From Actinomycetota bacterium (GTDB lineage Bacteria; Actinomycetota; Humimicrobiia; Humimicrobiales; Humimicrobiaceae), in contig JAMDEN010000062.1 in the NCBI GenBank assembly GCA_023487035.1, positions 1 to 35,200 on the forward strand: a stretch of DNA of 35,200 nt, given 5' to 3'. The notes below the pieces were generated by a model. That model was not told the origin of the DNA. It saw only the letters and a list, made by a program, of their open reading frames with translations, and searched no databases. Positions within the stretch are counted from its first letter, which is position 1. Each line of letters begins with the position of its first letter. Shown piece by piece: positions 2,533 through 33,543 of the stretch. A program made the translations under genes and the position numbers.

Positions 2533-2982
2533 ATGAACATTTTTTATAAATTAAAAAATGAGAAAGCTGCATCTTTAATATTAATGGCGATATTAATGCC
2601 TGTTTTTATAATGCTTATTGCTTTTGTTATAGATATTGGTGGTTCAATAATGCTAAAAGAAGAGCTGTATAAAGCATGCCTGATATCAGCTGAAGAAGCA
2701 TCAAAAATTATTGATTTAGATAAAGCTCAAATGGAAGGTTTAAATAATTTAGGTTCTTCTTTTGAAGATATAATAAATGATTATTTTAAAAAAAATTTCA
2801 AACCGATGAAAAATTCAGGTTTAAATAATTTAAACTATAAAGTTGTAGATAGTATGGAAAATCCAAAATATATTTTAGTAACCGGGGAAGCAAATTATAA
2901 AACATTTTTTTTAAAATTTATCGGCATTGAAAATATTAATGTTCATTCTCAAGCTCAAGGCAGATTAAAAAGGATAAAATAA
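2533..2982 (+). CDS. TadE/TadG-like pilus-assembly (minor pilin-like) protein
   Basis: 149 residues. After a short basic start, residues 11-37 read EKAASLILMAILMPVFIML and continue into FVIDIGG. This is the hallmark N-terminus of TadE/TadG-like proteins, in which a short leader with E/A-A-S precedes a hydrophobic helix ending in a V-D-x-G motif. Such proteins are membrane-anchored parts of Flp/Tad pili or related secretion systems. The remaining 110 residues are an extracytoplasmic domain ending in short beta strands. The gene follows the Trp-repeat gene by 23 bases with no clear ribosome binding site, which suggests one transcript. No TadA ATPase, TadB/C or Flp pilin is visible; they may lie upstream of the window. 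TadE and TadG cannot be separated from this sequence. Confidence 0.75.
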   Translation: MNIFYKLKNEKAASLILMAILMPVFIMLIAFVIDIGGSIMLKEELYKACLISAEEASKIIDLDKAQMEGLNNLGSSFEDIINDYFKKNFKPMKNSGLNNLNYKVVDSMENPKYILVTGEANYKTFFLKFIGIENINVHSQAQGRLKRIK

Positions 2983-3262
2983 TTTCATTTATCAAGAAAT
3001 ATTATATCCTAATCATCTTACTTCTATTTGTAATCTTAATTTAATTATTTAACATAAATTTAACGTCTCCTTAATATTGTCTTAATAAATTTAAAATATA
3101 ATTCCTCGTATAAAAATTAAAATCTAAATTGTTTGATTTTAATATCAAATTTTTAAATATTTTTAAATATGAGGGTTAAGAGTTTTGATACCAGCATAAT
3201 CAGATATTAGTAATTTTAAGTTTTTTAAAATAAATATTTTTAACAAATAAAGGAGACTGCAA

Positions 3263-5181
<1,919 letters not shown>

Positions 5182-21431: not shown

Positions 21432-22463
21432 GTGAAAAGATATCTAAAAATATCTGTATTTGCCGTTCTGATCCTTGCTCTTGCGATTTCTTTCTCAGTT
21501 GCTGGTTGCAAAACAGGGGCAACAACTGCTAAAGGAACAACGGCAAAAACAATGAAAGCATCAGATGTTACTATTGGTTATTCAGTTTGGACTATGGAAT
21601 TCACATTTTTCCAGAATCTTGAAAAAGGTGTAAAAGATGCTTGTAAAGCGTTTGGTTTCAAATATACAATGATTGATCAAAAGTCTGATGCTACACAAAT
21701 GGTTCAGGATCTGAATACTCTTGTTAATCAAAAAGTTAGTGGTATTGTAGTTACTCCTGTAGATCCCGGTGCTATGGCACCAGCAGTTCAAAAAGCAAGA
21801 GATGCCGGTATCCCAGTAGTTTGTGCTGATATTGGTAAATCAGGCCCAGTTAATGCTCTTATTATTTCAAATAACTTCCAAGGTGGACAACTTGCAGCTG
21901 AATATCTTGCTAAATTATTCCCTGACAAAAAAACTGTATTCGGTCTTGCTAACCTTAAACCACAATGGACTTATGCAAGGCAAAGAGGTGAAGGTTTTAA
22001 AGCTAAATGTGACGAATTAGGATATACTGTTAAATCAGAAATAATAGTACAAAATCCTTCTGCTGAGGGTGGTTATGATACTATGCAGCAAATTATGTCA
22101 GCTGCTCCTGAAACCAAAGGTGTTTTTGTTACATCTGGACGTGAAGCTACTGGTGCTGCAAACTATGTTAAATCTCAGAATCTGGATGTGAAAGTTGTAG
22201 GATATAATGGTGATCCTGAGGAATTCAATGCAATTAAAGATGGAATAGAAGCAGCTACTATATTACAGCAGCCTTATGTTATAGGTTATAAGGCAGTAGA
22301 AACTTTAAAGGAAATATTAGTTGATGGAAAATCTTATGAAAACGTTGAAATTCCTGCAGAGGTTAAGCTTGTAACTCCTGAAAATCTTAATCAAATTGCT
22401 GATGAAATTTTAAAAACTACTGGTAATTCGGCATTTGGTACACCAACTACAACTACTAAATAA
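21432..22463 (+). CDS. Sugar-binding lipoprotein of the RbsB type (Peripla_BP_4)
   Basis: 343 residues from a GTG start with a strong GGGAGG ribosome binding site 7 bases upstream. Residues 1-26 are a lipoprotein signal ending in the lipobox VAGC, followed by a Thr/Ala/Lys linker. The mature part is the two-lobe type I binding fold of ribose/galactose/AI-2 binding proteins: FTFFQNLEKGVKDACKAFGF, then VSGIVVTPVDPGAMAPAVQKARDAGIPVV, then GYDTMQQIMSA and VVGYNGDPEEFNAI. It captures the sugar outside the membrane and delivers it to the two permeases upstream. A strong terminator follows, closing the importer operon. RbsB-type proteins cover many sugars, so the ligand is open. Confidence 0.95.
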   Translation: MKRYLKISVFAVLILALAISFSVAGCKTGATTAKGTTAKTMKASDVTIGYSVWTMEFTFFQNLEKGVKDACKAFGFKYTMIDQKSDATQMVQDLNTLVNQKVSGIVVTPVDPGAMAPAVQKARDAGIPVVCADIGKSGPVNALIISNNFQGGQLAAEYLAKLFPDKKTVFGLANLKPQWTYARQRGEGFKAKCDELGYTVKSEIIVQNPSAEGGYDTMQQIMSAAPETKGVFVTSGREATGAANYVKSQNLDVKVVGYNGDPEEFNAIKDGIEAATILQQPYVIGYKAVETLKEILVDGKSYENVEIPAEVKLVTPENLNQIADEILKTTGNSAFGTPTTTTK

Positions 22464-22505
22464 ATATTTGATTCTTAAAGAAATGTAGTTGTAAAAATAA
22501 ATAAA

Positions 22506-22545
22506 ATAAAAGGGGCATATTTTTTTATGCCCCTTTTATTTTTAC
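22506..22545. terminator. Strong bidirectional rho-independent terminator
   Basis: ATAAAAGGGGCATA (22506-22519) pairs perfectly over 14 bp with TATGCCCCTTTTAT (22526-22539) around a six-T loop. It is flanked by T-rich sequence on the right and A-rich sequence on the left. It sits between convergent genes and can serve both. Confidence 0.92.
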
Positions 22546-28878: not shown

Positions 28879-29652
28879 ATGTTACAATTAAACAGAAAAG
28901 AAGAAATAATAAATATCCTAAAAAAGGAAAAAGCATGCAAAATTGAAGATCTCTGTAATAAGTTAGAAGTATCACTATCAACAATACATAGAGATTTAAA
29001 TGAACTTGAACGAGAAGGAAGCGTTAAGAAAGTTCATGGAGGGGTTTTAATAAATAATTCTGATGATTTGGAAATAAGAAATACTATAAGACTTAAAAAA
29101 AATGTAGATCTAAAAAATAGAATAGCATTAAAAGCATTAGAATTTGTAGAAAATGGGGATTATATCTTTTTAGATAATTCAACTACTTGTTATTATTTTG
29201 CCAAAATACTTTCTGAATCAAAGTTTGAGGATATATTAATTATCACTAATTCTTATTTAATTCCAGGGTTATTTTTTAAAAATAAAGAAATTGAAGTTAT
29301 TTCAACAGGAGGATTATTATTAAAAGAATATAGTTGTTTTGCAAGATCTTATGCAATTGATACTATAAGTAAATTTTCTGTTGATAAGTTTTTCTTTTCA
29401 GTAGCCGCTATATCAATTAAAGGGGAATTTGGTGATACTTTTGGTCCAGAATCTGAAGAAGTAAAAAGTGAAATGTTTAAAAGATCAGAAAAACGCATTT
29501 GTTTAGTGGACTCTACCAAATTTGGTCGTATTGGGCATATTAGTATCCCATTTCCCTTAAATGAAGTAAATAGCATTATAACAGATAAAAATTGTAGTGA
29601 AGAAATAAGGGAGGAGTTTGCTAAATTAGGGAAGAAACTAATAATTGCATGA
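28879..29652 (+). CDS. DeoR-family transcriptional regulator of sugar module B
   Basis: 257 residues. The N-terminal winged helix has RKEEIINILKKEKACKIEDL, the recognition helix SLSTIHRDLNELEREG and the KVHGGV signature. The sensor domain has DYIFLDNSTTCYYFA and the DSTKFG sugar-phosphate motif. It shares overall architecture with the DeoR protein of module A but is clearly diverged (SLSTIHRDL versus SPITVRRDL), so each probably controls its own set. Driven by a consensus promoter; no ribosome binding site is visible before the ATG. Divergent from the aldolase-kinase operon and 31 bases upstream of an amidohydrolase gene, both likely targets. Confidence 0.95.
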   Translation: MLQLNRKEEIINILKKEKACKIEDLCNKLEVSLSTIHRDLNELEREGSVKKVHGGVLINNSDDLEIRNTIRLKKNVDLKNRIALKALEFVENGDYIFLDNSTTCYYFAKILSESKFEDILIITNSYLIPGLFFKNKEIEVISTGGLLLKEYSCFARSYAIDTISKFSVDKFFFSVAAISIKGEFGDTFGPESEEVKSEMFKRSEKRICLVDSTKFGRIGHISIPFPLNEVNSIITDKNCSEEIREEFAKLGKKLIIA

Positions 29653-30748: not shown

Positions 30749-30861
30749 CTTTTGTTTAGCTTAAGTCTGATTATATAAAATAATAGTTATGTTTTAAAAA
30801 TAATAGGTCTGTTAAAAAAAATATTTTATCAATAAGGAGATAATATAAAAGTTAGGGGGTG

Positions 30862-30966
30862 ATGGATAAGTTAATAGCTTTGCGTTTCCAGCAATATTTG
30901 ATGGAAACGCAAAGTTTGGTACTTAAGAAATTAAAGCATATAAAATATAACACAAAATGGAGGTGA
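30862..30966 (+). CDS. Putative 34-codon leader ORF before the ABC importer of module B
   Basis: An ATG 5 bases after AGGGGG opens a 34-codon frame (MDKLIALRFQQYLMETQ...) ending in TGA inside a second Shine-Dalgarno-like GGAGGTGA. The peptide is basic and has no recognisable domain. It fully contains the perfect inverted repeat at 30878-30914, so translation of the ORF and folding of that hairpin would compete. It could be a regulatory leader, a small protein, or a coincidence of a good ribosome binding site. It is too short for the ORF track. Confidence 0.35.
   Translation: MDKLIALRFQQYLMETQSLVLKKLKHIKYNTKWR
30878..30914. promoter_or_regulatory. Perfect 13-bp inverted repeat in the leader of importer B
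   Basis: CTTTGCGTTTCCA (30878-30890) and TGGAAACGCAAAG (30902-30914) are exact reverse complements around an 11-base loop. No T-run follows, so it is not a simple terminator. The arms are much richer in G/C than the surroundings. It may be an operator (DeoR-type regulators often use TTTC/G-TTT-like arms) or an RNA hairpin. Confidence 0.7.
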
Positions 30967-31042
30967 TTTTAAGTTAAAAAAATAATTTCAAACTTAGAAA
31001 GACTAATTTATTTAAAACAGTTTAAGTTAGGAGAAAATAAAA

Positions 31043-32425
31043 ATGTTTAAAAGTAAGATTTTAAATTTATTATTATTGTTTTTAATAATTATAGTTGTAA
31101 TGTCTTTTAGCATGTTTGGCTGCAAAGCAACAACATCTACTGAAACAACATCAGCAGCTACTGAAACAACAGCTGGTGCTGAAACAACAGTAGCAGCATC
31201 AGAAACTACAGCCGCTGCTGAAACTGCCGGAAAAATAAAGTTAGATTTTCCTCATTGGTTTTTTAGTCATGGTGGAACTTTTGATACATGGATAAAGGGT
31301 GCTGTAGATGAATTTGTAAAACAAAATCCAAATATAGAAGTTAATGGTTATGCTGTAGGTTATGATGAATTTTGGGATAAAATTGATACAGCTATTGCAG
31401 CTGGAACTCCTCCAGATATTATAGCAGCACATAACACAAATTTAGGAAAATATATTTCAGCTGGTGCATTATTACCATTGGATGATTTGATAAACATGGC
31501 TGATATAAAAGATAATTGGAGTGTTATGCAAAAAGAAGGTGTTACTTCAACTAGTCCCGATGGAAAAACATATTTATTAACTTCAGATATGGGATTTTAT
31601 TTACCGATGTATAGACCGAGCGTTTTTAAAAAAGCAGGAATATCTAGTTATGCAAAAACTCCTGAGGAATTCATTGAAATGACAAAAAAATTAACTCAAT
31701 CAGGTATTAAAGGGTATGCAGCAATGATTAATCCTGGTAATTGGCAGGAAGGATTATATGATTTAGCTATATGGACTATTGGATTAGGTGGACACTATGG
31801 AAAAGATGGTAAACCAGCGCTAAATTCACCAGAGGTAATTCAAGCAGTAACTTATTTAAAACAATTATTTGATGCAGGTGTTATGCCAAAAGAAATTGAC
31901 AAAGGTACATATAGAAAAATGTTTGCTACTGGAGAAGTTGGAACATTAATAGATGGCCCATGGATGTATGAAATGGCGGTTGGTTGGGACCCATCTGTTA
32001 AAGGAGATTTCGAAGTAGTTGATTTACCTTTTCCTACACAAAGAGTAACATCATTTTTTGAAGGATTATCAATTAGCTCCAAATCTAAAAATCCTAAAGA
32101 AGCTGCAAAGTTAATAGAATTCTTATGTTCTCCAGAACAGCAAAAAAGACTTGTTGAAATTACTGGAATCATGTCAGCAAGAGAAGATATCTATAAGGAT
32201 CAAACATGGTCAAATGGATTGACCCAAAAATGGCCATGGTTCCAAAAGTATATTGATCATGTAAGTCAGGCTGTTCTTAATAATCCAACAGGTATGCCTG
32301 GAGAAAAAATTCCTGAGGTAGTTAAAATTTGGTACACTGCTTATGAAAAAGTGCTTTATGAAAATGCAGACCCAACAAAAGCTATGAATGATGCACAGAC
32401 AGAAGCAATGGCATTATTTAAATAA
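31043..32425 (+). CDS. Sugar-binding lipoprotein of the MalE/UgpB type (SBP_bac_1)
   Basis: 460 residues. A lipoprotein signal with lipobox MFGC (Cys28) is followed by a Thr/Ala/Glu linker of about 35 residues with repeats of (A)ETT. The mature protein has the extracellular solute-binding family 1 pattern: FDTWIKGAVDEFVKQNPNIEV, DEFWDKIDTAIAAGTPPDII, GALLPLDDLI, GTYRKMFATGEVGTLIDGPWM and a late PKEAAKLIEFLCSPEQQKR. It binds an oligosaccharide or sugar derivative for a MalFG-type importer, whose first permease lies at the window end. TAGGAGA ribosome binding site 9 bases before ATG. A hairpin follows the gene. Confidence 0.95.
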   Translation: MFKSKILNLLLLFLIIIVVMSFSMFGCKATTSTETTSAATETTAGAETTVAASETTAAAETAGKIKLDFPHWFFSHGGTFDTWIKGAVDEFVKQNPNIEVNGYAVGYDEFWDKIDTAIAAGTPPDIIAAHNTNLGKYISAGALLPLDDLINMADIKDNWSVMQKEGVTSTSPDGKTYLLTSDMGFYLPMYRPSVFKKAGISSYAKTPEEFIEMTKKLTQSGIKGYAAMINPGNWQEGLYDLAIWTIGLGGHYGKDGKPALNSPEVIQAVTYLKQLFDAGVMPKEIDKGTYRKMFATGEVGTLIDGPWMYEMAVGWDPSVKGDFEVVDLPFPTQRVTSFFEGLSISSKSKNPKEAAKLIEFLCSPEQQKRLVEITGIMSAREDIYKDQTWSNGLTQKWPWFQKYIDHVSQAVLNNPTGMPGEKIPEVVKIWYTAYEKVLYENADPTKAMNDAQTEAMALFK

Positions 32426-32534: not shown

Positions 32535-33543
32535 ATGATTTCAGCAGTATTTTATGGCAATCGGAACATTCAAATAAGGAAAAATAAAATAAAAAAAGTT
32601 AAAAATGATGAATTATTAATTAAAGTAATGGCATCTGGAATTTGTGGCACAGATATTTTATTTTATAATGGAAAATGTTCTTATATTAACTTACCTGTTA
32701 TTCTTGGGCATGAATATTCAGGAGAAGTGGTAGAAATAGGAGAGGATGTAAATAATATTCAAATTGGAGATAGAGTAGCTATTGACCCTACTGTCTTTTG
32801 CTGTGAGTGTTTTTATTGTTGTAATGGCCAAGTTCATCTTTGTGATAATATGTTTACATTAGGTGTTAATAAAGACGGAGGTTTTTCTCAATATTCATTA
32901 GTCCCTTGCAGAAGCGTATATAAGCTTGAGAATAATATTAGTTTTGAAGAAGGTGCGCTTCTTGAGCCAATTTCTTGTTGTATCCATGGACTTGATAAAT
33001 TAAAAATACAATTGGGCGATGTAGTTATGTTATCTGGATTTGGTCTTATTGGCTTTATTATGCTTCAATTATTAAAGATTTATGGAGCATCCAAGGTTAT
33101 TGTTTTAGAACCAAAAGCAGATAGGAGGGAATTAGCAGAAAAATTTGGTGCTAATTACATATTAAATCCAAATAACAATATTGATTATAATATTAAGCAG
33201 ATCGTACAAAATGGTGCCGATATATTAATTGAATGTTCAGGTAATCCATTAGCACAAGAAAATGCATTTTCATTTGTTAAAAAAGGTGGAAAAATACTTT
33301 TTTTTGGATGCTCCCCTGATTTCCAGAAAATATTTATTTCCACCTTATCATAATGAATTATCTTTAATAGGTTCAACAAATAGTCCTTTTTCATTTATTA
33401 AAGCACTGAGATTATTATCTAGTAAAAGAATAAATGTAAAAGAAATTATCAGTCATAAATTAAAATTAGAAAATATCGTAAAAGCTTTTAATATGGTTGG
33501 ATCAAAAAATATAGGAAAGATATTAATAATACCAAATTCTTAA
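32535..33543 (+). pseudogene. Zinc-dependent medium-chain dehydrogenase with a frameshift
   Basis: The first frame (32535-33353, 272 aa) carries the start of a medium-chain dehydrogenase: SGICGTDILFYNG (catalytic Cys), GHEYSGEV (zinc His), the structural zinc set CCECFYCCNGQVHLC, and the NAD-binding SGFGLIGF. It then stops soon after GGKILFFGCSPDFQ. The family's ending continues in the +1 frame (PPYHNELSLIGSTNSPFSF...KILIIPNS, to 33543). Skipping one base near 33339, in ATTTATTTCC, joins the two into a 335-residue protein, essentially the length of the intact paralogue that follows. So this is a single-base frameshift: a true mutation, an assembly error, or much less likely programmed shifting. 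Weak ribosome binding site (GTGAG). Confidence 0.85.

Follow-up and report, generated by a model that had tools for sequence, protein, structure and literature searches.

Plasmid copy-number control supplies most known examples of loop-specific antisense RNAs. In IncFII plasmids (R1), CopA keeps the Tap leader from being translated, and repA is coupled to that leader (PMC12779154). Importer genes can also be under RNA control: those regulated by the small RNA GcvB include oppA and dppA (PMC3658540). On the sense strand, STAB-SD of cry3A is a Shine-Dalgarno (SD)-like sequence in the 5′ UTR that stabilizes the mRNA without initiating translation (PMC4113751).

Here we describe a hairpin in the leader of an importer gene within a 35,200-nucleotide stretch of DNA from an Actinomycetota bacterium of the family Humimicrobiaceae (the whole stretch is called the window), together with R1, a set of cassettes found in the leaders of substrate-binding protein (SBP) genes of the same family. 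The nearest analogue of the R1 cassettes would be CopA/Tap-type antisense control, with which the predicted arrangement shares a stem-loop antisense RNA opposite a leader and a target leader carrying a short upstream reading frame. Unlike CopA, the cassettes are chromosomal, occupy many loci per genome and combine one stem sequence with unrelated loops; their targets would be ABC-importer binding proteins. The likeness to GcvB is RNA control of importer genes, but GcvB is one trans-acting RNA, whereas here each gene would have its own cis-encoded RNA. STAB-SD differs in being a sense-strand stabilizer without antisense hairpin or promoter. DeoR-family operators are similar in having inverted half-sites near a deoR gene and differ in that the half-sites here are lost at orthologous deoR loci and the arm spacing varies across the family. 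A full-text literature search for such RNAs returned no description, and its incomplete coverage makes this weak evidence of absence. Cis-antisense control is known; what is apparently new, as far as checked, is a chromosomal set of many loci that combines one shared scaffold with free loops in the leaders of importer genes.

The source genome is an AT-rich draft of 2.2 Mb in 174 contigs. On the plus strand of the window, genes for a DeoR-family regulator (28879–29652) and an amidohydrolase (PF04909, 29684–30748) are followed by the leader (30838–31042) and by the gene for an importer lipoprotein SBP (SBP_bac_1/8, 31043–32425). Elsewhere in the window, a zinc alcohol dehydrogenase (32535–33543) seems to lie in two overlapping frames (32535–33353 and 33262–33543), which appears to reflect a frameshift or an assembly error, and a perfect, terminator-like 17-bp inverted repeat with a 6-nt loop (22503–22542) directly follows a ribose-type SBP gene (21432–22463).

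The perfect 13-bp inverted repeat with an 11-nt spacer that had been reported in the leader was found exactly at 30878–30914, as CTTTGCGTTTCCA (30878–30890), N11 and TGGAAACGCAAAG (30902–30914). This hairpin, H1, is the top inverted repeat of its leader (z = 10 against shuffles) and is single-copy in the source genome even with three mismatches allowed. The fold of 151 nt around it had a z-score of −3.8, and 0 of 200 shuffled sequences folded equally well. Fold energies in the window are equal on the two strands (−19.5 kcal/mol antisense and −19.5 kcal/mol sense). An Rfam covariance-model scan of the leader gave no match, the exact hairpin was not found in viral contigs, and plasmid blastn gave AT-rich chance matches only.

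Orthologous loci were traced via the DeoR and amidohydrolase orthologues. Among 35 family genomes, the whole leader was found only in G015 (75% DNA identity, E = 1.5e-34), where synteny is kept, with 63% identity for DeoR and 72% for the amidohydrolase. In the same slot of G015, the SBP resembles that of the window in its signal peptide but shares just 27% identity with it (31043–32425 against 2742–4145 of locus L149). Conservation therefore covers the leader and the signal-peptide region and does not extend to the gene body; binding proteins could be exchanged by recombination in the leader. Between the window and G015, the arms CTTTGCGTTT/AAACGCAAAG and the element GGAGGTGATTTTAAG are invariant. 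In G004 the stem reads CTGTGCCTAC-N11-GTAAGCACAG, at the same distance from an upstream GGGGG as in the window, and, relative to CTTTGCGTTT/AAACGCAAAG, has double substitutions at three pairs, all preserving the pairing. On the coding strand, the G015 stem has A·C at two positions, each of which is G·U on the antisense strand, and the G004 stem has one C·A pair that is likewise G·U in antisense. Fold energies (antisense/sense) are −21.2/−13.1 kcal/mol in G015 and −14.7/−8.6 kcal/mol in G004, and this antisense-strand pairing supports a structured RNA opposite the target leader in three genomes. The hairpin is present in these three genomes only: G011 has a weak stem that is better paired on the sense strand, together with a different promoter-like site, and the orthologous locus of G017 has neither the H1 hairpin nor an antisense promoter of the type described below. 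A related hairpin whose arms (GAGGTTTAC...GTAAACCTC) show compensation was seen at a paralogous locus (L351, G000 contig 171), in the leader that separates a second amidohydrolase from an SBP.

The original prediction left out the antisense strand, on which the stem pairs best and a promoter candidate points into the stem. This candidate (minus strand, 30944–30972, score 8.2) consists of a −35 element TTAAAA (30972–30967), a 17-nt spacer and an extended −10 element TG-T-TATATT (TATATT at 30949–30944); it lies 29 nt from the stem, with a predicted start near 30937. The same site with the same score occurs in G015 and G004; across the three loci, the top antisense promoter in the hairpin–SBP interval reads TTAAAA or TTTATA, 17 nt and TGnTATATT, 25–30 nt from H1. 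Promoters of the TGnTATATT type were found in exactly these three loci. Taken singly, each candidate has p of about 0.1 against shuffles, so the weight is carried by the shared site and its co-occurrence with the hairpin. The minus strand has no U-tract after H1, where the sequence continues CUAUUAACUUAUCC, and hence no 3′ end is predicted.

Comparison of the loci thus points to a stem of RNA type that pairs better in antisense and is accompanied by a conserved promoter-like site. Because the stem is conserved, its mismatches are only G·U in antisense and a conserved promoter candidate faces it, we slightly favor reading the inverted repeat as the stem-loop of a cis-encoded antisense RNA (30878–30914, minus strand), rather than as a DeoR operator or part of a leader peptide. 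Transcription of the minus strand would begin at the extended −10 promoter between the hairpin and the SBP gene. The RNA would then base-pair with the complementary hairpin in the leader of the SBP mRNA, probably starting from the loop, and this would lower SBP expression, either through RNase III cleavage or by blocking the ribosome from the upstream SD site or upstream reading frame. Both this effect on the SBP and its sign are inferred.

H1 is preceded by an SD-like site and followed, in the same orientation, by a lipoprotein SBP gene, and a comparable layout recurs among the other SBP leaders compared: an SD-like site, about 20 nt, the pattern GAGATTTG…CAAATCTC and then the SBP gene. The pattern occurs in 20 of the 35 family genomes (reversed-pattern controls gave zero), and elsewhere in the phylum it gave three chance-like matches only. 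Read in antisense, the cassette consists of a TTTACT-17-TAAAAT promoter, a 14-bp stem GAGAUUUG…CAAAUCUC enclosing a random-like loop, and a U-tract. A covariance model, R1, derived from 55 antisense sequences, matched 75 places in 21 of the 35 family genomes (E ≤ 0.01). Sixteen matches that the pattern search had not used were inspected, and 13 had a lipoprotein SBP start just downstream. In 297 sampled Actinomycetota genomes, family included, no match at E ≤ 1e-4 fell outside the family. A lipoprotein SBP start lies within 200 nt downstream on the same strand in 56 of 60 elements; three of the remaining four lack a recognized lipoprotein start and one is at a contig end. Example downstream genes carry the Pfam domains SBP_bac_1/8 and Peripla_BP_4. 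An Rfam scan of seven element loci gave no relevant match, the weak ones being far below the gathering threshold. Stem identity is 0.89, and loop identity is at chance (0.30 vs 0.28 shuffled), as expected if the loops give specificity. The upstream SD-like site is followed by a start codon in 60% of the elements (34% in shuffles), and many copies have a mini-ORF there, typically of 3–6 codons and often ending at the hairpin base. Translation of the mini-ORF may therefore still matter in these copies, and coupling similar to CopA/Tap is possible by analogy. In two further SBP leaders (L154, L187), palindromes similar to GTAAGCGCGTAC and TGGAAACGCTTCCA lie upstream of the SD site and look like LacI-family operators.

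The strand of the R1 cassettes was assigned mainly from promoter and U-tract. Two conserved motifs past the 3′ arm on the coding strand read TTTACT-17-TAAAAT on the opposite strand, with the −10 ending 6–7 nt before the first stem base in 47 of 58 elements and a promoter score of 6.15 against 4.08 ± 1.8 for shuffled sequences. In antisense, a U-tract (at least six T in 8 nt) follows the stem in 44 of 58 elements; in sense it does so in 0 of 58, and the rate in a control is 8%. Stem covariation is 0.249 in antisense (0.143 shuffled, 0 of 500 reaching it) and 0.163 in sense (0.075 shuffled), in both cases against shuffles that ignore relatedness. The better fold is antisense in 42 elements and sense in 12. 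At pairs 9–15, the sense strand shows 68 A·C and 25 G·T pairs; column shuffles alone are likewise A·C-rich (79 vs 35), so that the asymmetry owes as much to the composition of the columns as to pairing and adds support without being decisive. In held-out copies, the outer eight pairs show no strand bias (6 vs 7) and pairs 9–14 do (13 vs 5). Since the shuffles are blind to relatedness and the first eight held-out pairs are unbiased, the strand call rests mainly on promoter and U-tract. A mobile element was rejected for R1 because orientation and position before SBP genes are fixed, and sense-strand riboswitches because the loops are at chance identity and promoter and U-tract lie on the opposite strand. 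The simplest reading of a cassette is a self-contained antisense gene made of promoter, stem with loop, and terminator, and we consider it likely that the R1 cassettes are antisense RNA genes.

The R1 model did not match at the window and G015 loci, where the arms differ, the window promoter candidate stands 29 nt from the stem, not 6–7 nt as the sigma70-like promoter of the cassettes does, and the U-tract is missing. The window hairpin is therefore the same kind of arrangement and not a sequence member: it shares layout with the R1 family, and membership is not claimed.

The strongest competitor of the antisense reading, which we nevertheless regard as unlikely, is a sense-strand hairpin of the SBP mRNA leader that stabilizes the mRNA or controls translation together with a startless SD2. 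The equal folding of the two strands in the window is consistent with it, as is the covariation of the family elements, which is significant on the sense strand too. SD2 (GGAGGTGATTT, 30959–30969) contains the second GGAGGTGA that had been noted as having no usable start codon nearby; this observation held, and similar startless sites recur in many SBP leaders of the family, SD2 itself being identical in G015. In five other leaders (L006, L173, L212, L251, L266), as at 30959–30969 of the window, GGAGGTGRTYT, which complements the anti-SD almost perfectly but has no start codon, lies about 70–115 nt before the SBP start. Since STAB-SD is a known non-initiating stabilizer (PMC4113751), SD2 could, by analogy, stabilize the mRNA as a landing site of this kind. 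On the minus strand, SD2 overlaps the −35 of the candidate antisense promoter. Against a sense hairpin, the stem mismatches of G015 and G004 fall on the sense strand only, and the family promoter and U-tract face the opposite way.

Less probable still is a DNA operator, an alternative raised in the original prediction, in which the DeoR-family regulator encoded nearby would recognize CTTTGCGTTT as inverted half-sites. In its favor, 20 of 20 half-site bases are identical between the window and G015 while the loop has diverged, and a DeoR gene is linked in both. However, the half-sites are absent from G004 and G011, which retain DeoR orthologues (63% and 68% identity, respectively); no exact or one-mismatch 9-mer half-site (TTTGCGTTT/AAACGCAAA) was found upstream of deoR in the window or G015, and the arm-to-arm span among family elements, 45 to 69 bp, is not operator-like. 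The proposed comparison of compensatory changes with fixed half-sites came out accordingly: the two closest copies have fixed arms, and the compensation between window/G015 and G004 favors RNA over an operator.

Translational control of the importer by a leader peptide, in the manner of a classical attenuator-type leader ORF, is very improbable. A 34-codon ORF (30862–30966, plus strand) with a nearby SD site, SD1 (GGGGGTG, 30855–30861), does span the hairpin, its TGA lying within GGAGGTGA (30959–30966), and the start-codon enrichment after SD1 in family elements speaks for translation there. The ORF had been credited with a strong RBS, which did not stand up: GGGGGTG, 16 nt before H1, abuts the ATG, and the gap of 2 nt from GGGGG is too short for a normal start. 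GGGGG itself is found 17–18 nt ahead of H1 in the window, G015 and G004. The ORF can be translated only on paper, since at the corresponding position G015 has no ATG and the frame ends after 24 codons; a search of 35 genomes gave no convincing homologue of the peptide (best match E = 0.03). With its start and 3′ half unconserved, a specific leader peptide is unsupported. A chance or decayed mobile-element palindrome is scarcely credible, for although the CTTTGCGTTT palindrome is repeated in some unrelated Acidobacteria, H1 is single-copy here and sits at the same site across genera with compensation. A GTDB-wide search with CTTTGCGTTTN{9,25}AAACGCAAAG returned 86 loci, which include many palindromic repeats of Acidobacteria and, as the sole true relative, G015; the repeated CTTTGCGTTT...AAACGCAAAG palindromes of SZAS-14, CALMYB and Pyrinomonadaceae (L063–L142) are unrelated to the window leader.

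The antisense reading would explain an odd leader that, with its perfect hairpin and startless SD, annotation would otherwise record as an operator or a peptide. Taken together with R1, it leads to a broader picture that we put forward tentatively, rating it a little short of even: dozens of chromosomal antisense RNA genes, built on a shared scaffold with promoter and terminator and bearing unrelated loops, would each silence their own ABC-importer binding protein, and the window copy would be an independent variant with arms of its own. A set of chromosomal importer genes appears to bear self-addressed antisense RNAs on one scaffold. If true, this would allow modular, separate control of each of many paralogous binding proteins, and would constitute a natural library of orthogonal RNA regulators.
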